Origin: Ferranicluibacter rubi
GTDB lineage: Bacteria; Pseudomonadota; Alphaproteobacteria; Rhizobiales; Rhizobiaceae
Direction of reading: 5' to 3'
Length of the DNA: 39,485 nucleotides
NCBI RefSeq assembly: GCF_011603255.1
Contig: NZ_JAANCM010000022.1
Location: 1 to 39,485, forward strand
Shown: positions 2,550-38,878 of the stretch, in pieces
Layout: every line of letters starts with the position of its first letter
Numbering within the stretch: the first letter of the stretch is position 1
The notes under the pieces: model-generated
Told to the model about the DNA's origin: nothing
Databases searched by the model: none
Seen by the model: only the letters and a program-made list of their open reading frames with translations
Made by a program: the position numbers and the translations under genes

Positions 2550-5500
2550 ATGATGTCCACAGGTCCCTTTTCCGGCCCGAAGAACGGCTCCCCGAGCGTT
2601 TCCGACGACCGGCTATCGTCCGGCGCAAGCGGTCGTCAGCGGTTCAATCTCTCGCGCTGGGCCATCGGCCATCCGAGCATCGCGCGCTTCCTGTTCGGGC
2701 TGATCATTCTCTCCGGCGTGTTCGGCCTCATGAATATGGGCCAGAAGGAAGATCCCGACTTCACATTCCGCGTCATGGTCATCCAGGCGCTCTGGCCCGG
2801 CGCCTCGATCGAGGACATGCAGGACCAGGTGGTGAACAAGATCGAGCGCAAACTGCAGGAAACCCCGCATCTCGACTTCGTGCGCTCGTACAGCCGTGCG
2901 GGAAGCACCATCATCACGCTGCAGGTGAAAGGCGATACAAATGCCCAGCAGGTCGCCGACGCCTTCTATCAAGTGCGCAAGAAGGTCGGCGACATCCGCT
3001 CCGAGTTGCCGTCCGGCATCGTCGGCCCCTTCTTCAACGATGAATTCGGCGATACGTTCATTACGCTTCACGCCCTGATGGGCAACGGCTACAGTTTTCC
3101 CGAGCTCAAGAGCTACGCCATCAAGGCGCGCGATATGCTCCTCTCGACGCCCGGCGTGGAGAAGGCCCTCATCATCGGCGACCAGCCGGAAAAAATCTTC
3201 ATAGACGTCTCCTCCAAGGCGCTCGCCGAACGCGGACTAACGCTGAACGATCTTCGGGATACGCTGGCGGGACAGAACGCGATCGATCCGGCCGGAAATG
3301 TCGATACAGGGGACCGCTCCGTGCGCATCTCCGTCGAGGGCGACGTTCGCAAGGTCGAGGACATCCAGAACCTGCGCCTGCGGTCAGGCGACCAGGTCAC
3401 GCGCCTCGGCGATATCGCAGCGGTGACGTCGGGCCTGGAGGATCCCTTTGCCCGCAAGTACCGGGTCAACGGGCAGGACAGCGTTCAGCTCGGCGTGGTC
3501 ATGGCCAAGGGCTTCAACGTCATCGACGTGGGCAAGGCCGTGGAGGCGACCTATGCGCGTTTCGAGGCATCGCTGCCCTACGGTGTCGAGATCGAGCAGA
3601 TTTCCAACCAGCCGGAGGTGGTGAACGAGGCCGTCGGAGAGTTCATGAAGGCACTGGCGGAAGCCCTGATCATCGTCCTCGTCGTGTCGTTCCTCTCGAT
3701 CGGCTGGCGCTCGGGTCTGGTCATCGCCATCGCCATTCCGCTCGTCCTCGCCGCCACCTTCGCCATCATGTACGAGATCGGCATCGATCTCCAACGCATC
3801 TCGCTCGGCGCCCTCATCATTGCTCTCGGGCTTCTGGTCGATGATGCCATGATCGTCGTCGAACTGATGGAACGCAAACTGGACGAGGGGCTCGTCAAGA
3901 TCGAGGCGGCGAGCTTTGCCTACTCCTCGACCGCCTTTCCCATGCTCACCGGCACGCTGATCACCACGGCAGGCTTCATCCCGGTCGGGTTTGCTGCCTC
4001 GACTGCCGGCGAATACGTCCGTTCGCTCTTTTACGTCGTCGGCATCGCGCTGGTGGTTTCCTGGTTCGTGGCGGTCTATTTCACGCCCTGGCTCGGCTAC
4101 ATGATCCTGAAGCAGCGTAGCCACGCCGGCGGGCACCATGACGTCTTCGATACGCGGTTCTACCGGCGCCTGCGTGCCACCGTCAGCTGGAGCGTGCGCC
4201 ATCGCCTGATCGTCATCGCGCTGACGCTTGGCACGTTCGTCACCAGCCTGTGGGCCTTCCAGTTCATCCCGCAGAACTTCTTCCCCCAATCCTCCCGTCC
4301 GGAAATCATGGTCGATCTCTGGCTGCCAGAGGGTACGAGCATCAAGGACGTCGAGGCCCAGACCAAGGCAATGGAAGCCCGTATTATGGAGGATCCAGAT
4401 AAGCGGTTCGTCGCAAGCTATATCGGCGAAGGCGCACCCCGCTTCTTCCTGCCGCTCGACCAGCAGCTTCGCAATCCGAACTTCGCCCAGCTCCTCGTCA
4501 TGGCCAACGACGAACCGGCGCGCGAACGCCTGATCCTGAAGCTGCGCGACATTCTTGCCAGCGACTTTCCCGCGATCCGGTCCAAGGTCGATCGCCTCTT
4601 CCTCGGCCCGCCGACCGGATGGCCCGTGCAGATGCGCGTCAGCGGCTCGGATAGGGCTGAAGTGCGCCGCATTGCAGACGAGGTGAAGAAGCGGTTCCAA
4701 AACAATCCGATGCTCGGTGCCGTCCATGACGATTGGCTGGAGCCCGTGCCCGCCATGCGCCTGATCGTCGATCAGGACCGCGCCCGCGCGCTCGGCGTGA
4801 CCTCCCAGCGCATCCGCCAGATGCTGCAGACCACAACGAATGGCGCACCGCTCGGCGATTTCCGCGATGGCGAGGAAACCATTTCGATCGTCGCGCGCGA
4901 ACCGGACGAAAACCGGAAGCTGCTGTCGGCCGTGAATTCCGTCTATATCCCGACCGATTTCGGCGGATTCATCCCGCTCTCGCAGATCGCCAAGGTCGTT
5001 CCGGTGCTCGAACAGGGCGTCGTCTGGCGGCGCGACCGGCTGCCCACCATCACCGTGCGCGGTACCCTGCCCGACGGCGTGCAGCCGAACGATGTGGTGA
5101 GCCAGATGTATGCCGGCATGCAGGATCTGCGCGACGGCCTGGCGCCCGGCTATAAGGTGGAAATCCAGGGCGGTGCCGAAGATGCGGCGGAAAGCCAAGC
5201 CTCGATTGCGGCCAAGGCGCCGATCATGCTGATGATCATCGTCATCCTGCTGATGATCCAGCTGCAGCACTTCGGCAAGGCCATGCTGGTGCTCGCCACG
5301 GGTCCGCTCGGCATCATCGGCGCCAGCGCGGCGCTGCTGATCAGCGGCGCTCCCTTCGGCTTCGTCGCCATTCTCGGCGTCATCGCGCTGCTCGGCATCA
5401 TCATCCGAAACTCGATCATCCTCATCGACCAGATCGATCAGGACATCGCGGCTGGCATGAACCGGATGGATGCGATCATCGGCGGTGCCGTTCTACGTTT

Positions 5501-6344: not shown

Positions 6345-6369
6345 GGAACTTGTTGCGAAATCTTGCGTT
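6345..6369 (+). promoter_or_regulatory. EcfG/RpoE2-type general stress promoter
   Basis: GGAAC at 6345-6349, then exactly 16 nt, then CGTT at 6366-6369, matches the alphaproteobacterial general-stress sigma factor consensus GGAAC-N16/17-CGTT. It sits 43 bp upstream of the ATG at 6412 and points at that gene. The rest of the 235-bp gap toward the cytochrome gene shows no other clear signal. Confidence 0.65.
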
Positions 6370-6411
6370 CTTCGACCGCTCGCACGTCTGCGATACGATC
6401 TAAAGGACCCG

Positions 6412-7314
6412 ATGATCATGACAATCCCAGCTTCTCCCTATCGTCCGACCGAAACCGTCTACGGTGGTGTGCCTTCAGTAACTGCGTCTTTGCACAAAGT
6501 ATCCTGGGGTTCCATCTTCGCCGGTGTCGCACTGGCACTTGCCGTTCAGTTTCTCCTCAATCTGCTTGGCGTCGGCATCGGCGCTGCCGTGATCGATCCT
6601 GCACAGTACGATAATCCTCAGGCAAGCACCTTCTCCATCGCCGGCGGCGCGTGGTTTGTGGTCTCTGGCATCATCGCTTCGTTTGTCGGTGGCTATGTCG
6701 CAAGCCGTCTTTCGGGTCGCGCCAGCAAGTCGACCGGTGGCTACCATGGTGTTACCGCCTGGGCTGTGACTGCTCTCGTCGTTCTCTACCTGCTGACCAC
6801 GTCGGTCGGCGCGATCGTCGGCGGTGCCTTTAACGGCATTTCCAGCGTCGTCGGTGGTGTTAGCCGTACGGCTGCCACAGCTGCAACAACTGCGGCACCG
6901 GCACTTTCCGACGTTACCAACCCGATGGCCGGCATCGAGCAGCAGATCCGCAATACGACGGGCAATGACCCGCAGGCCCTGCAGAACGCAGCCGTATCCG
7001 CCATCCAGGCTGTCGTCACCGGCGACGAAGCTAGCGCCGAAGAAGCCCGCACCCGTGCTGCCGAAGCTCTGGCCCGCGCTCAGAACATCCCGGTCGATCA
7101 GGCTCGCACCCAGGTTCAGCAGTATGAGCAGACCTATCGCCAGAACATGGAAGCTGCCAAGCAGCAGGCTATCGACGCCGCTCAGACTGCAACGGCTGCC
7201 GTATCGACAGGCGCCATTCTCGGCTTCATCGCTCTCGTCCTCGGCGCCATTGCAGCCTGGTTCGGCGGCGTTGCTGGAACCAAGCGCGATCTGGACGACG
7301 TCCGCGCCGTATAA
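6412..7314 (+). CDS. Membrane protein of unknown function, stress-promoter controlled
   Basis: A 300-residue protein not assigned to a characterised family. An N-terminal ~25-residue polar tail is followed by hydrophobic segments at roughly residues 30-50 (SIFAGVALALAVQFLLNLLGVG), 78-98 (VVSGIIASFVGGYVASRL) and 117-140 (AWAVTALVVLYLLTTSVGAIVGG). Then comes a ~110-residue Ala/Gln/Glu/Arg-rich helical region (about 150-255) and a final C-terminal membrane segment (GAILGFIALVLGAIAAWFGG). The helical stretch may form a coiled coil. AAAGGA lies just upstream of the ATG at 6412; the ATG at 6418 is an alternative. The EcfG-type promoter upstream suggests a general stress envelope protein, but no biochemical role can be read from the sequence. 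A strong terminator follows. Confidence 0.8.
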   Translation: MIMTIPASPYRPTETVYGGVPSVTASLHKVSWGSIFAGVALALAVQFLLNLLGVGIGAAVIDPAQYDNPQASTFSIAGGAWFVVSGIIASFVGGYVASRLSGRASKSTGGYHGVTAWAVTALVVLYLLTTSVGAIVGGAFNGISSVVGGVSRTAATAATTAAPALSDVTNPMAGIEQQIRNTTGNDPQALQNAAVSAIQAVVTGDEASAEEARTRAAEALARAQNIPVDQARTQVQQYEQTYRQNMEAAKQQAIDAAQTATAAVSTGAILGFIALVLGAIAAWFGGVAGTKRDLDDVRAV

Positions 7315-7340
7315 ATCCGGCTAACGATATCCGAAACATA

Positions 7341-7368
7341 AAGCCGCCGGTCGCAAGACCGGCGGCTT
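7341..7368. terminator. Strong bidirectional terminator hairpin
   Basis: AAGCCGCCGGTC, loop GCAA (7353-7356), GACCGGCGGCTT: a perfect 12-bp stem in the gap between the converging membrane protein and HWE kinase genes. The stem ends in AA/TT, so a short U-run follows in either direction. Confidence 0.85.
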
Positions 7369-7379
7369 TGTCGTGTCTG

Positions 7380-9257
7380 CTAAGCGATGAATTCGACGGG
7401 AAAGCGCGAAACGAGCGTGCAGACGAGACCACCCGGGACGTAGTCGAGCTTGACCTGGCCCTTGAAGTCCGCAGCGAGAACCCGGGTTATCAGCCGGGAG
7501 CCAAATCCCGACCGGGTCGGGGGCACGACAGGTGGGCCGTTCTTCTCTTCCCACCGCAGCGCAAAGGCCTGAGCGTCGGAACCATTCGCGTTTTGATCCC
7601 AGCTGATCACAATCTTTCCGTTCGGCGACGAGAGCGCGCCGTATTTCGCGGCATTGGTGGCCAGTTCATGCATGGCGAGGGCGAGCGAAAGCGTTTGTTT
7701 CGGGGAAAGCGGGAGGTCGGGACCGGCAATGTCGAACTGAGCGGCACCGGCCCGATGCGGTGCCAGTGCCGTTTCGATGACCTCGCGGATACTGCCCTTC
7801 TCCTGCGCTTCCCCCATCAGGAGGTCGTGCGCGTGAGCCAGAGTGTGCAGGCGAGCGTTGAAGGTGTCGCGCTGCTCCAGAATCGCGTCGCCCTTCAGCG
7901 TCTGCGACGCGATGGCGCTGACCATGGCCAGCGTGTTCTTGATCCGGTGCTGAAGTTCGCCATTCAACAGGGCATATTGGCTTTCGGCATCCTTGATGGC
8001 CGTGATATCGCGGACGGTGCCGACGAGCCGCGTTGCATCCTTGCCGTCAACAACCCGTGCTCTGGCGTGAATCCAGCGCTCCGGCCTGTTCTCGCCGGAC
8101 AGCACCCGGTATTCGACATCAAGATGCCCTTCCCCGAGAGGATCCATGGCCTGCTCGACAGATCGACTGAGGGCCGGTCTGTCGTCGGGATGTACGCGGC
8201 TGACAAAAGTCTCGAAGGATGGCTGCTGATCGGCCGGCTGGCCCAGCAGAAACGACGCCCTCGCATCCTCTGTCGTCGAAACGATACGTCCATTGACGAG
8301 AACGGCCTCCCAGACACCCATTTCCGCGGAATCAAGTGCCAGTTGCAGCTGGAGTTCTCTCCGTCGTAACGCAATCTCAGCGCGTTTCAGGTCGGTCACA
8401 TCATGCCCTTCGATGAAGAGGCCGGTTACTTGGCCTTGAAGATCGCGAATGGGCTGGATGACGAAGTTGAGGAAGATATCCTCCTCCCCTCCCCCCTCGA
8501 CGCGCATTAAGCGGATCAACTCGCCCCGACCTGTCATGGCCTCACCCGTGGCGTAGACACGGTCGAGAAGCGTGATGACCTGCTGGCGCTCCAGTTCCGG
8601 CAGAACAGACCGAAAGGGACGACCAACCATCGCGCGGGGGCCAATCAGGCGCGAAAACGCGCCGTTGACGATCTTGACGACGTGATGCGGCCCTTCCAGC
8701 GTACAAAGGAAACTTGGAGCACTCTCAAAAAGGCGGCGCATGCTATCGGCCTCTCGCAAGGCCGCATTTTGAAGATCGACGGTGAGCTGTCTCGCCTCTT
8801 CCCGGGCGAGTTTCGTCTCCGTGATATCTCTGGAGATCGACAAAAGATGAGTTGGTTTCCCATCAGCGCCGGGAACCGGCAGGACCTGCACATCCCAATA
8901 GCGTGGATTGCCTTTGACGGTGACAGCCGATCCCGAAAACCGCGCGGGAATACCCTCCCTTGCAGACGCTATGGCGGCCTTCGCAACATCATTCCCCTCC
9001 CCGGTCCAGAAATCTGGCCAAGGGCAACCCTTGATCCCGCTGAAATCGTCCACCCCCATGACCTGCTTCCCGCCATCGCTCATAAACTGGAGATTTCCGT
9101 CCAGATCGAGGATCTTGATGCAGTCTCCGGAGCCTGAGAACACAGCGGCTAGAAGATCTGCATTTCCAACGAGTGCCGGGTCCGCGGCCGCAAGTTCACC
9201 ATTCATGCGGAAGACGGCAGAAGAAACAGTCGCAGGGCTCATCGATATCATGTCCAT
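7380..9257 (-). CDS. PAS-PAS-PAS sensor histidine kinase, HWE family
   Basis: A 625-residue soluble-looking kinase with no membrane segment. Three PAS-like domains lie at about residues 32-150, 172-295 and 302-425; the first and third end in the typical D-I-T linker and the second in D-V-T. The kinase core begins with LNGELQHRIKNT, where H437 is the probable phosphoacceptor. The N-box is H530-E-L-A-T-N535, and the W569-E motif in RWEEKNGP, together with the N-box His, defines the HWE class, which is common in Rhizobiales. The G-box is short (SGFGSRLI). There is no receiver domain and no response regulator gene next to it, so it is an orphan. No LOV-type cysteine motif is visible in the PAS domains, so the signal is unknown. 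No good ribosome-binding site precedes the ATG at 9257; ATGs at 9251 and 9242 are alternatives. Confidence 0.92.
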   Translation of the reverse strand: MDMISMSPATVSSAVFRMNGELAAADPALVGNADLLAAVFSGSGDCIKILDLDGNLQFMSDGGKQVMGVDDFSGIKGCPWPDFWTGEGNDVAKAAIASAREGIPARFSGSAVTVKGNPRYWDVQVLPVPGADGKPTHLLSISRDITETKLAREEARQLTVDLQNAALREADSMRRLFESAPSFLCTLEGPHHVVKIVNGAFSRLIGPRAMVGRPFRSVLPELERQQVITLLDRVYATGEAMTGRGELIRLMRVEGGGEEDIFLNFVIQPIRDLQGQVTGLFIEGHDVTDLKRAEIALRRRELQLQLALDSAEMGVWEAVLVNGRIVSTTEDARASFLLGQPADQQPSFETFVSRVHPDDRPALSRSVEQAMDPLGEGHLDVEYRVLSGENRPERWIHARARVVDGKDATRLVGTVRDITAIKDAESQYALLNGELQHRIKNTLAMVSAIASQTLKGDAILEQRDTFNARLHTLAHAHDLLMGEAQEKGSIREVIETALAPHRAGAAQFDIAGPDLPLSPKQTLSLALAMHELATNAAKYGALSSPNGKIVISWDQNANGSDAQAFALRWEEKNGPPVVPPTRSGFGSRLITRVLAADFKGQVKLDYVPGGLVCTLVSRFPVEFIA

Positions 9258-35728: not shown

Positions 35729-36820
35729 TTAAGCTTGGGTCTTCGCCTTGTTGACGAAATGGGCGTTGCCAAGGCCGGTGCCGATGGTCAGCACGGCCCA
35801 TTTGGATACGTCGTGCATGAAGGGGATCTGCGACAGCCCCTGAACGACGGCATCATTGTGCATCATCACGAAGGTCTCATGCCCGCCGATCTCGGGAATG
35901 GCCTTCTTGATCGCTGCCGGCAGATTGAAGATGTCACTTTCCCAATTGCCGCCTGGCAAATTCTGCCCGCCGCGCTCGATCGAGCCGTCCGCCTGAATGA
36001 TGCCCGGGCAACCGATACCGATCAGCGGCGCTGGCGCCAGCTTCTCCTTCTCGGCGCGTGCGATCAGATCTTTCAGCATCGCGATCAGACGCTCGACGGC
36101 CACACTGCGGCTCGGACGATCATCCGAATGCCGCCAGATCTCCGACTGCCAGACAGCCGCCTCTTCCAGATAATGCTTGTCGTCGCTCTTTGCCTTGCCG
36201 AGGTCGACGACACCGGCGCGAATGTTCGTGCCGCCGATATCGACGGCGAAGATCGCCTTGTGCCCCTTCAGCATCCATGCCGGCATCAGGTGTACCGAAC
36301 CGATCAGCCCGGCATCATCAGGGTGGTGAACGACCGGGACCAGATGGACGTGCACGTCGCGCTCGGCAAGCAGCATCTCCGTACGGGCAATGGCAAGTTC
36401 GCCGGAGCGGCTCTGACGAAAGCCGCCCCCGACCACGATCCGCTCGGTGCCGGCCCAATGCTTCTGCTTCAGGAAGCGCGTGACCACATTGGCGAATTCC
36501 TGTGAAAAGTCCTCGATCGCACTCCACACCAGCGCGGCCGCCTGCGCGTCCTTGCCCTTGAGCAGCGCATCGATATCGCGCTTGGGAAGATCGGCTGTGG
36601 CAACCTTGCCGATCGGGTCGATGCCGACCTCCCGCATCACCTTTCGCCAGCGATGCAGCTTCTCACGGAACTCGCCCTTCGTCGCCTTGTCGCCGATGAA
36701 GCCGTCCTTGTCGCGAATCTCGATGTTGTAATCGTCGATGATGAGGGCTGGTAAGTCGAGGGCTCCATTTGTCAGGGGGCCGGTGGCCTGATCCTGTGTC
36801 GCAGTCTTTGACGTAGCCAT
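35729..36820 (-). CDS. ROK-family sugar kinase-like protein with circularly permuted motif order
   Basis: A 363-residue protein. Residues ~94-185 resemble the C-terminal part of ordinary ROK kinases (helix FSQEFANVVTRFL, then R-I-V-V-G-G-G-F near 127-134 and P-D-D-A-G-L-I-G-S near 167-175). Only after this comes the N-terminal ROK phosphate motif A-V-D194-I-G-G-T-N-I-R, then GIGCPGIIQADGSI, N-L-P-G-G-N-W, the catalytic-type H-N-D323 and the second phosphate motif G-T-G-L-G near the very end. The C-x-C-G zinc motif of ROK proteins is missing. The first ~90 residues are of unknown type. It is a predicted cytoplasmic sugar kinase or sensor. ATG 36820 is used; AAGGGA lies about 10 nt upstream. 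It is divergent from minCDE. Confidence 0.85.
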   Translation of the reverse strand: MATSKTATQDQATGPLTNGALDLPALIIDDYNIEIRDKDGFIGDKATKGEFREKLHRWRKVMREVGIDPIGKVATADLPKRDIDALLKGKDAQAAALVWSAIEDFSQEFANVVTRFLKQKHWAGTERIVVGGGFRQSRSGELAIARTEMLLAERDVHVHLVPVVHHPDDAGLIGSVHLMPAWMLKGHKAIFAVDIGGTNIRAGVVDLGKAKSDDKHYLEEAAVWQSEIWRHSDDRPSRSVAVERLIAMLKDLIARAEKEKLAPAPLIGIGCPGIIQADGSIERGGQNLPGGNWESDIFNLPAAIKKAIPEIGGHETFVMMHNDAVVQGLSQIPFMHDVSKWAVLTIGTGLGNAHFVNKAKTQA

Positions 36821-36973
36821 CAATCATCGATCCCTTCATTTGCAGGTGCGGTCGCAACGTATCGCTGCCGCGGATGTTCCCGCTAGGCTCCGCCCGCATC
36901 AACGAAACCCCTGAAATGGGATGGAAACAGCCGCTTTCGACCGTTTCGCAAGCCTTGGGCAAGGCCGTTCCTG

Positions 36974-37029: not shown

Positions 37030-37776
37030 ATGAACAAAGTGCCAACAGACGCCCGCTCGATCCGTATCAAGGGCCGCTCCTTTCTCGCGGTCGTTCTCTC
37101 TCCGGACCTGCCGCTTGATGCGTGGCTGATTCGGCTGGACGACCTCGCTGCGCGCTCCGCCGGCTTCTTCTTCGGCCGCCCAGCCGTTCTGGACGTCGCC
37201 GACCTGAAGCTCGACCGGACCCAGCTGAAGGAACTGGTCGATGAACTGACCCGCCGCAATGTCAGCATCATGGGCATCGAAGGCGCGCGTCCCTCCGCGA
37301 TCGCGCCCGGAATGCCCCCGGCGCTGAAGGGTGGGCGTCCGGCGTCCGACTTCGAGGTCACGACCAGCGATCCGGCCGAAGCCGGGACGACGGACGATAT
37401 GGCGAGTGAGGCCGGTGAGGTCCGTGCGGAAGAACCCCGCCCGGCGCTCCAGTCGCTCGTCATCCGCGAACCGGTCAGGTCCGGGCAATCCGTCGTCTTT
37501 ACGGAAGGCGACGTCACCGTCGTCGGTTCCGTGGCCTCGGGTGCCGAGATCATCGCGGGTGGGTCGATCCATATTTACGGCGCACTGCGCGGCCGCGCCA
37601 TGGCGGGCGCCGTCGGCAACGCCAGCGCACGAATCTTCTGCCGGAAGCTCGAGGCCGAACTGGTCGCGATCGATGGCGTCTACAAAATGGCCGAAGACAT
37701 GGCCCCTGGTCTCCGCGGACAACCCGTCCAGCTGTGGCTGGAGGACGATGCGATCATGGCAGAGAAACTCAAGTGA
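37030..37776 (+). CDS. minC: Septum site-determining protein MinC
   Basis: A 248-residue FtsZ inhibitor. The N-terminal domain (about 1-100) has SIRIKGRSFLAVVL and P-A-V-L-D-V-A-D-L. An acidic/Ala-rich linker (about 100-140) leads to the C-terminal beta-helix domain (about 145-245) with REPVRSGQSVVFTEGDVTVVGSVA, ASGAEIIAGGSIHIYGALRGRA and ARIFCRKLEAELVAIDGVYK, the surfaces that bind MinD. No Shine-Dalgarno sequence precedes the ATG, and a CtrA-like box ends 5 bp upstream, so translation may be leaderless or weak; the family-conserved start (DARSIRIKG) supports 37030. It is the first gene of minCDE. Confidence 0.96.
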   Translation: MNKVPTDARSIRIKGRSFLAVVLSPDLPLDAWLIRLDDLAARSAGFFFGRPAVLDVADLKLDRTQLKELVDELTRRNVSIMGIEGARPSAIAPGMPPALKGGRPASDFEVTTSDPAEAGTTDDMASEAGEVRAEEPRPALQSLVIREPVRSGQSVVFTEGDVTVVGSVASGAEIIAGGSIHIYGALRGRAMAGAVGNASARIFCRKLEAELVAIDGVYKMAEDMAPGLRGQPVQLWLEDDAIMAEKLK

Positions 37777-37805
37777 GCCGGATACGGCCAAAACAGGAGA
37801 GCAAG

Positions 37806-38621
37806 ATGGGGAAAGTCATCGTCGTTACGTCAGGCAAGGGTGGGGTCGGCAAGACCACGTCCACGGCCGCCCTCGGTGCCGCCCTGGCTCAGAGGAATGA
37901 AAAGGTCGTCGTGGTCGATTTCGATGTCGGGCTGCGCAATCTCGATCTGGTGATGGGTGCGGAACGCCGCGTCGTCTACGATCTGATCAACGTCATTCAG
38001 GGCGATGCCAAGTTGCCGCAAGCGCTGATCCGCGACAAGCGGCTGGAAACGCTGTTCCTGTTGCCCGCGTCGCAGACGCGCGACAAGGACAACCTCACCG
38101 AAGAGGGTGTCGAGCGTGTCATCGGCGAACTGAAGCAGCACTTCGACTGGATTATCTGCGACAGCCCCGCCGGTATCGAGCGCGGCGCAACGCTGGCCAT
38201 GCGCCATGCGGATGTCGCCGTCGTCGTCACCAATCCGGAAGTCTCGTCCGTCCGTGACAGCGATCGCATTATCGGCCTGCTCGATTCCAAGACGCTGAAG
38301 GCCGAAAACGGCGAGCGTATGGAAAAGCACCTGCTCCTCACCCGCTACGATCCGATCCGCGCCGAGCGTGGTGACATGCTGAAGGTGGAGGACGTGCTCG
38401 AAATCCTGTCCATCCCGCTGCTCGGCATCATCCCGGAAAGCATGGATGTGCTTCGCGCTTCCAACATCGGCGCACCGGTCACACTCGCAGACGTGCGTTG
38501 CCCGCCCGCGATGGCCTATTTCGACGCCGCCCGTCGTCTTGCAGGCGAAACCCTGCCGGTCACGATCCCCGGTGAAAAGCGCAGCCTGTTCGGCAAGATC
38601 TTCGCACGGAGGGCTGCATGA
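37806..38621 (+). CDS. minD: Septum site-determining ATPase MinD
   Basis: A 271-residue deviant Walker-type ATPase: G-K-G-G-V-G-K-T-T near residues 10-18, switch segments [16 protein letters not shown] and [12 protein letters not shown], and a C-terminal amphipathic helix ([12 protein letters not shown]) that anchors it to the membrane. It binds and positions MinC and is displaced by MinE. The AGGAGAG site lies just upstream of the ATG, 29 bp after the minC stop. Its stop overlaps minE by 4 bp. Confidence 0.98.
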
Positions 38622-38878
38622 GCATTTTCCGCCTTTTCACCAAACAGAGGTCCGCGCCGATGGCGCGCGAGCGGCTGCAGGTTCTGCTTGCGCATGAACG
38701 CGGTGCCGCTGGCTCCGACCTCGTCGCCATCCTGCGCGAGGAAATCCTCGCTGTCATCGCCAAGCATGTGCAGATCGACAGCGACAAGGTCCATGTGAAG
38801 ATGGACCGGGACGAACACATGTCGATCCTGGAGATCGACGTCGAGATCCCGCTGGACGCCACCAAACAGGCGGCCTGA
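38618..38878 (+). CDS. minE: Cell division topological specificity factor MinE
   Basis: An 86-residue protein with the N-terminal membrane-binding/anti-MinCD part ([28 protein letters not shown]) and C-terminal dimerisation domain ([41 protein letters not shown]). It stimulates MinD ATPase activity and sets the Min gradient. The ATG overlaps the minD stop (ATGA), so translation is coupled. Confidence 0.97.

Follow-up and report, generated by a model that had tools for sequence, protein, structure and literature searches.

A circularly permuted member of the ROK kinase family, conserved over many soil bacteria

Introduction

The ROK sugar kinases (PF00480), among them glucokinase, NanK and BglK, form a large and well-studied family in which the motifs follow one linear order along the chain: DxGGT, ND, GTGxG, IVxGGG and AGLIG. 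The roles given to these motifs come from ROK structures, where GExGH is sugar-binding and the aspartate of ND is the base. Polyphosphate/ATP glucomannokinase ROKs are not known to have the zinc motif CxCGxxGC, which the protein described here lacks as well, and the example of known structure (PDB 1woq) has the normal order. In another part of the kinase world, ADP-glucokinase and 2-dehydro-3-deoxygluconokinase (KDG kinase) share the ribokinase fold. The accessible portion of PMC2213659 describes a segment swap between ADP-glucokinase (1gc5) and KDG kinase, which sets a precedent for sugar kinases related through altered segment order; the same portion contains no word starting with ROK, hexokinase or actin. 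Kinase fold groups related by permutation are mentioned, in general terms only, in the available excerpt of PMC1079889, and the main text of a 2025 superfamily review (PMC12696579) holds no word starting with “permut”. Excerpts of PMC7701253, PMC1976428 and PMC2876114 were not relevant to a permuted ROK, and we found no report of one among the matches listed in open-licence PMC.

Here we describe such a protein from a stretch of Ferranicluibacter rubi DNA (contig NZ_JAANCM010000022.1, 39,485 nucleotides, analysed as a whole and termed “the window”). It is like the ROK sugar kinases in its nucleotide-side motifs, in a catalytic-type ND and in the alignment of both structural parts, but differs from them in that the halves have changed places and both the zinc motif and GExGH are gone. 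We give a probability of roughly 85% to the explanation as a whole, namely a naturally permuted ROK-lineage actin-fold sugar kinase, including the reading of its substrate side and stress control set out below. The annotation gives no hint of swapped halves; in the annotated plasmid records among those seen, the group is mostly filed as “ROK family protein”.

The Gene and its Motif Order

The gene occupies 35729-36820 on the minus strand, according to the open reading frame list and its translation (363 amino acids plus stop; 35732-36820 without the stop), and starts with the ATG at 36820, with a TTG one codon farther out at 36823. All features below are on the same strand. The chain opens with a variable tail followed by a conserved LPSVxVDxYN strand (residues 1-39, 36704-36820), as seen in the family alignment. 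Residues 40-180 (36281-36703) are the equivalent of the ROK C-terminal part (profile positions 179-297) and carry the adenosine-side motif RIVVGGGF (residues 127-134, IVVGGG being 128-133; 36419-36442), placed by sequence and alignment, and DDAGLIG (residues 168-174, PDDAGLIG being 167-174; 36299-36319), placed by sequence, alignment and hhalign, which in ordinary ROKs lies near the C-terminus. By hhalign, a new junction between the old C-terminus and the old N-terminus follows at residues 181-189 (36254-36280), and the equivalent of the ROK N-terminal part (profile 1-145) takes up residues 190-357 (35750-36253; hhalign 71.4, Pfam ROK 2-142). This part holds the first phosphate loop DIGGTN (residues 194-199, 36224-36241), CPG (residues 271-273, 36002-36010), HND with the predicted catalytic Asp323 (residues 321-323, 35852-35860) and the second phosphate loop GTGLG (residues 347-351, 35768-35782), which ends exactly 12 residues before the chain does. 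An initial annotation, made from the sequence by a model, had proposed the permutation and placed these motifs, together with a chain end about 12 residues past GTGLG, just where they are in the 363-residue translation. It had also named a second, normal copy of the C-terminal motifs in the same chain as a finding that would undo its proposal, and no such copy is present.

For the family alignment, 45 relatives were read out, and 37 of them were aligned with the window's protein (P0001) into a set of 38 (alignment A1). Left aside were five near-duplicates (L002, L008, L030, L032 and L047) and three loci with in-frame stops as read (L015, L044 and L045); L014, which is the window's own gene, and L026, a fragment, stood outside the 45. 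The homologue search for a conserved order, suggested in the initial annotation, gave a uniform answer, as the motif order is permuted in all 38 sequences, the window's protein included. Throughout these 38, D194, G196, G197, N199, C271, P272, G273, H321, N322, D323, G347, T348, G349, L350, G351 and N352 are invariant, and the first loop reads D[IV]GG[TS]N in every case. Homology stops soon after GTGLGN, where some members have a lysine-rich tail.

As the reference we assembled 35 ordinary ROK proteins, a set biased to high-scoring, full-length ROKs, from 29 loci (L060-L088) and six of the 12 ROK rows of the window's own genome; these 12 include the permuted gene itself and two pieces of one frame, and the six taken are near full-length. 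The normal motif order was seen in 29 of the 35, and the remaining six each fail to match one or more of the three patterns in their written form.

Profile Comparisons

The Pfam ROK profile (PF00480) matches residues 191-358 with its positions 2-142 of 294 (30.4 bits, above the cut-off of 22.9), and the NCBIfam BglK profile matches residues 92-177 with positions 209-283 of 291, that is, with its last quarter. Thus the two matches to known families, one to the first half of a profile and the other to the last quarter, are crossed. Profile-profile comparison with hhalign, in which a ROK profile made from the 35 ordinary proteins was set against the family and the redundancy filter retained 30 of the 38 family sequences, found both halves homologous to ROK. 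In the natural order there were two matches, residues 191-361 to ROK 1-145 (score 70.4) and 40-180 to 179-297 (47.9), whereas rotation at residue 185 gave one colinear match of 6-358 to 1-297 over 291 columns with a score of 100.7. When the cut was moved along the chain, the top scores (97.0 to 101.3) fell to cuts at 180-192 and all other cuts gave 57.2 to 94.2, while for three ordinary ROKs, each compared with a profile built without it, the unrotated chain scored best. The N half alone reached 47.5, against a mean of 14.3 and a maximum of 27.2 for 200 column shuffles and 15.2 for the reversed half.

One may ask whether the C-terminal half alone is ROK, with residues 1-185 an unrelated cap in which GGG and AGLIG occur by chance. 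The N half is without a ROK Pfam hit and its single-sequence matches are weak (5.3 bits), but the profile-profile score far above all shuffles and the colinear match obtained on rotation both argue against such a cap. Placement of single sequences by HMMER points the same way, with C halves centred in the N-terminal half of ROK and N halves in its C-terminal half in 38/38 cases each; the centring of the N halves is a weak test, because 46% of the scored shuffles centre there too. More telling is that the N halves reach ROK position 280 or beyond in 34 of 38, compared with 3.9% of the shuffles that had a hit (539 of 760) and none of the reversed halves that had one (36 of 38). Taken singly, the sequences score low with HMMER (a median of 6.5 bits, where the best shuffle had 5.3), so it is the family profile that gives the comparison its strength. 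Taking these together with the single-body model described below, we regard an unrelated cap as highly improbable.

The breakpoint right behind the second phosphate loop agrees with the initial annotation. Its remark that an N-terminal “cap” of about 90 residues was unexplained needs revision, since from residue 40 onward this region aligns to ROK 179 onward and is thus largely the helix-rich segment that normally comes after the second phosphate loop.

Rotation brought little at the level of single sequences. The HMMER score was 30.6 bits after rotation and 30.4 in the natural order, almost no gain, and an attempt to lengthen the Pfam ROK match by rotating single sequences and re-scanning them was given up, as the match grew no longer. 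When eight rotated sequences were combined into a profile, a PDB search with it gave no match at E 0.01. The case for permutation therefore rests on the profile-profile comparison.

Several database matches touch on the nearest relatives. Searched as a single sequence in its natural order, the protein finds its best PDB match in the polyphosphate/ATP glucomannokinase 1woq (E 0.0047), of which the alignment covers only the N-terminal part, and the corresponding profile NF045942 matches all eight of the rotated members tried, with E values of up to 1; a search of 150 genomes of the window's phylum gave no match to this enzyme at E 1e-40. With the natural-order profile, ROK chains in the PDB were matched over short or partial stretches only, and the top match, 2yhy, was discarded as evidence on account of its taking in an expression-tag stretch of the chain. 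For the N-half profile, E. coli NanK (2aa4) was matched at the right place (E 0.12), with an unrelated t-SNARE ahead of it at 0.088. A Pfam match to baeRF_family10 (residues 72-136, E 0.0093, under its cut-off) was regarded as chance.

Predicted Structure

AlphaFold2, run on the 38-sequence alignment, gave the whole chain a mean pLDDT of 89.4 and a pTM of 0.89, with weak blocks at residues 1-10 (mean 47), 211-220 (65) and 361-363 (41); the new junction is modelled with a short helix at 181-184. By our reading, the order of elements in the model would fit a ROK fold opened behind the second phosphate hairpin. Folded in isolation the N half was less confident (pLDDT 75.4) than the whole chain. 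Its two best PDB matches in Foldseek were ROK kinases, without significance (E 0.022 and 0.031, rmsd above 8 Å), a result that leaves some room for the unrelated cap, against which the confident single body of the whole chain speaks.

Searched with the whole model, Foldseek returned hexokinases, MreB and exopolyphosphatases of the hexokinase/actin-fold (ASKHA) superfamily, from which the present protein differs by its permutation, and ROK chains that align sequentially to about half of it (2yhy: 173 columns, 2.2 Å, TM 0.43 by target). An alignment that runs across a tandem repeat is what one would expect of a permutant, and the top match is the tandem protein human hexokinase 2, with 433 columns including gaps. 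We take it as only suggestive, because the rmsd is 30 Å and the single-copy MreB likewise aligns at length (311-313 columns, rmsd about 6 Å, TM 0.33 by query); such long sequential MreB alignments mean that long matches alone are no proof of permutation. With the rotation scan and its shuffled controls, the placement of both halves in 38 sequences and the confident predicted fold in agreement, we consider it nearly certain that the ROK fold has here been circularly permuted, as the initial annotation had proposed, and that the permuted form is conserved.

Distribution

The permuted kinase is conserved over many soil bacteria. By tblastn, 207 of 72,556 plasmid records match, 204 of the 207 with at least 80% coverage at one place, and they are mostly from Rhizobium (111) and Sinorhizobium (79). 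Near full-length homologues are carried by 13 named genome loci, among them Methylobacterium and Xanthobacteraceae, and the gene was found in 12 of 289 genomes at the class level and 22 of 398 at the phylum level, its own genome being in both counts. The distribution is patchy, with two of the 17 own-family genomes listed (its own and G519) positive at E 1e-8 when at most five candidates were scored per genome. An assembly artefact or a recent rearrangement in a single strain is refuted by this conservation in named genomes, plasmids and both taxonomic samples, and its probability is close to nil; nothing was found in its favour, the contig end (39485) being about 2.7 kb from the gene.

Two full-length copies each are present in the genomes G484 (L035 and L046) and G468 (L036 and L047). 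L026 (G280:C38) is a second, partial match of residues 289-360 only, in a genome with a full copy elsewhere. In the Sinorhizobium meliloti 1021 pSymB record, no gene is annotated in the stretch homologous to the kinase, at about 477.1-478.2 kb.

Lost Motifs and Predicted Activity

The initial annotation had noted the absence of the zinc motif, and this holds for the 363-residue sequence and for the family (0/38, against 32 of the 35 ordinary ROKs, a control set chosen among high-scoring proteins); to this we add the loss of GExGH (0/38 against 31/35). In place of the lost GExGH/zinc segment the family alignment shows the conserved LPSVxVDxYN strand and GFxGDRAS. Judged by its motifs, the nucleotide side is apparently intact and the sugar side apparently rebuilt.

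We propose that the ancestral C-terminus (the DAGLIG helix) was joined to the ancestral N-terminus (the DxGGT strand) via about nine residues, and that the chain was reopened right behind the second phosphate loop, in the segment that bears GExGH and the zinc motif in ordinary ROKs. The protein would most likely keep the same two-domain clamp fold, binding ATP through DIGGTN, GTGLGN and IVVGGG, and Asp323 of HND would serve as the base for phosphoryl transfer to a small substrate that is a sugar or resembles one. Where ordinary ROKs have the GExGH/zinc loop, the protein would use its N-terminal LPSVxVDxYN segment, which may confer a different specificity.

A permuted ROK fold that is a kinase no longer could instead act as a sugar or osmolyte sensor, or as a partner protein, binding ligand and nucleotide without turnover. 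The loss of GExGH and the zinc motif from all 38 members would suit this, some ROK proteins are regulators according to the available part of PMC12696579, and no catabolic operon was recognised around the gene in the neighbourhoods examined. Against it stand HND and GTGLGN, invariant in 38, and the first phosphate loop, kept in every member, and Pfam finds no DNA-binding domain, so that we think a non-kinase unlikely. Given the invariant H-N-D, the most likely reading is that the protein is still a kinase but has had its sugar site rebuilt, and an active ATP-dependent kinase is, on these residues, a likely prediction. With GExGH absent, hexose phosphorylation is not to be assumed, and a glucose-like hexose as the substrate is possible but somewhat doubtful. 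Being opened at GExGH and the zinc motif, this conserved natural permutant is well suited to testing what in the ROK fold serves stability and what serves specificity.

A Candidate Stress Promoter

The sequence GGAAC-N16/17-CGTT is the EcfG/RpoE2 consensus of the general stress response. A pattern search located GGAAC-N16-CGTT at 36856-36880 on the minus strand, 60 nt upstream of the ATG. Of 46 loci, 19 (the window and 18 others) have the strict pattern in the 300 nt before the gene, at 53-78 nt from the start used in 18 of the 19 and at 248 nt in L015; the chance expectation is 0.14% when taken from shuffles and 1.4% when taken from random 300-mers of these loci. In a group picked after the result was seen (the window, L001-L011 and L027) it is present in 13 of 13, and plasmid-derived loci (L089-L095 and L116) have it in six of eight. 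It was not found in the other 27 of the 46 loci, including all five outside the window's class. The two Shinella loci have a version with one mismatch, and in 20 further alphaproteobacterial loci without the strict pattern the best version had one mismatch in 12, two in seven and three in one (spacings 15-18, a count made without control).

According to the accessible part of PMC3616915, RpoE2 reacts to heat, to osmotic and oxidative stress and to starvation, and stress sigma factors are the subject of the excerpt of PMC6180224; in open-licence PMC we found no paper mentioning both the ROK family and RpoE2. From the promoter motif, transcription by the general stress sigma factor is probable in Alphaproteobacteria, chiefly Rhizobiaceae, and for Rhizobiaceae we infer general stress control with good confidence. 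The only other strict match in the window lies at 6345-6369 on the plus strand, where 0.45 matches in all are expected by chance.

Genomic Neighbourhood

Divergent neighbours were searched with three query proteins in 42 loci, some of which are from the same or close species; the window and L001-L004 contributed just 2.3-2.7 kb of upstream sequence each. The trehalose-phosphatase gene otsB is divergent from the kinase in nine of the 42 loci. Five loci (Sinorhizobium and Ensifer) have as the divergent neighbour an M42 peptidase whose annotation places it in the NAGGN osmoprotectant system, and one locus, the source of the query, has a transporter of the glycine-betaine type. In some lineages the kinase adjoins osmoprotectant genes, and the divergent otsB suggests a role in osmotic stress. 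Since osmoprotectant genes are not among the kinase's neighbours in the window, where it lies between a dienelactone hydrolase and the pair of minC and a MinD-type ATPase, this link is suggestive and not general.

More speculatively, the opening of the chain within the GExGH/zinc segment may have rebuilt the sugar pocket so that a stress-induced kinase, spread on rhizobial plasmids, came to act on a substrate used by no known ROK, such as a sugar or polyol that derives from trehalose or is of the osmolyte type. For rhizobia, the gene may expose an unrecognised step of stress or osmolyte metabolism in nitrogen-fixing symbionts.

Among 20 neighbour proteins scanned with Pfam, eight had no match, and the only repeated ones were otsB (two) and a PF04143 sulphur-transport gene (two). 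The latter lies just upstream on the same strand in L108 (G646, 3439-4692) and L115 (G492, 6350-7624), both of one genus outside the class. The glycine-betaine type ABC transporter of L106 (G636, 3321-4871), also outside the window's class, has its OpuAC and permease domains in one protein. In the window, minC, the MinD-type ATPase and a minE-like frame of 86 amino acids follow one another on the plus strand at 37030-38878, directly past the kinase promoter.
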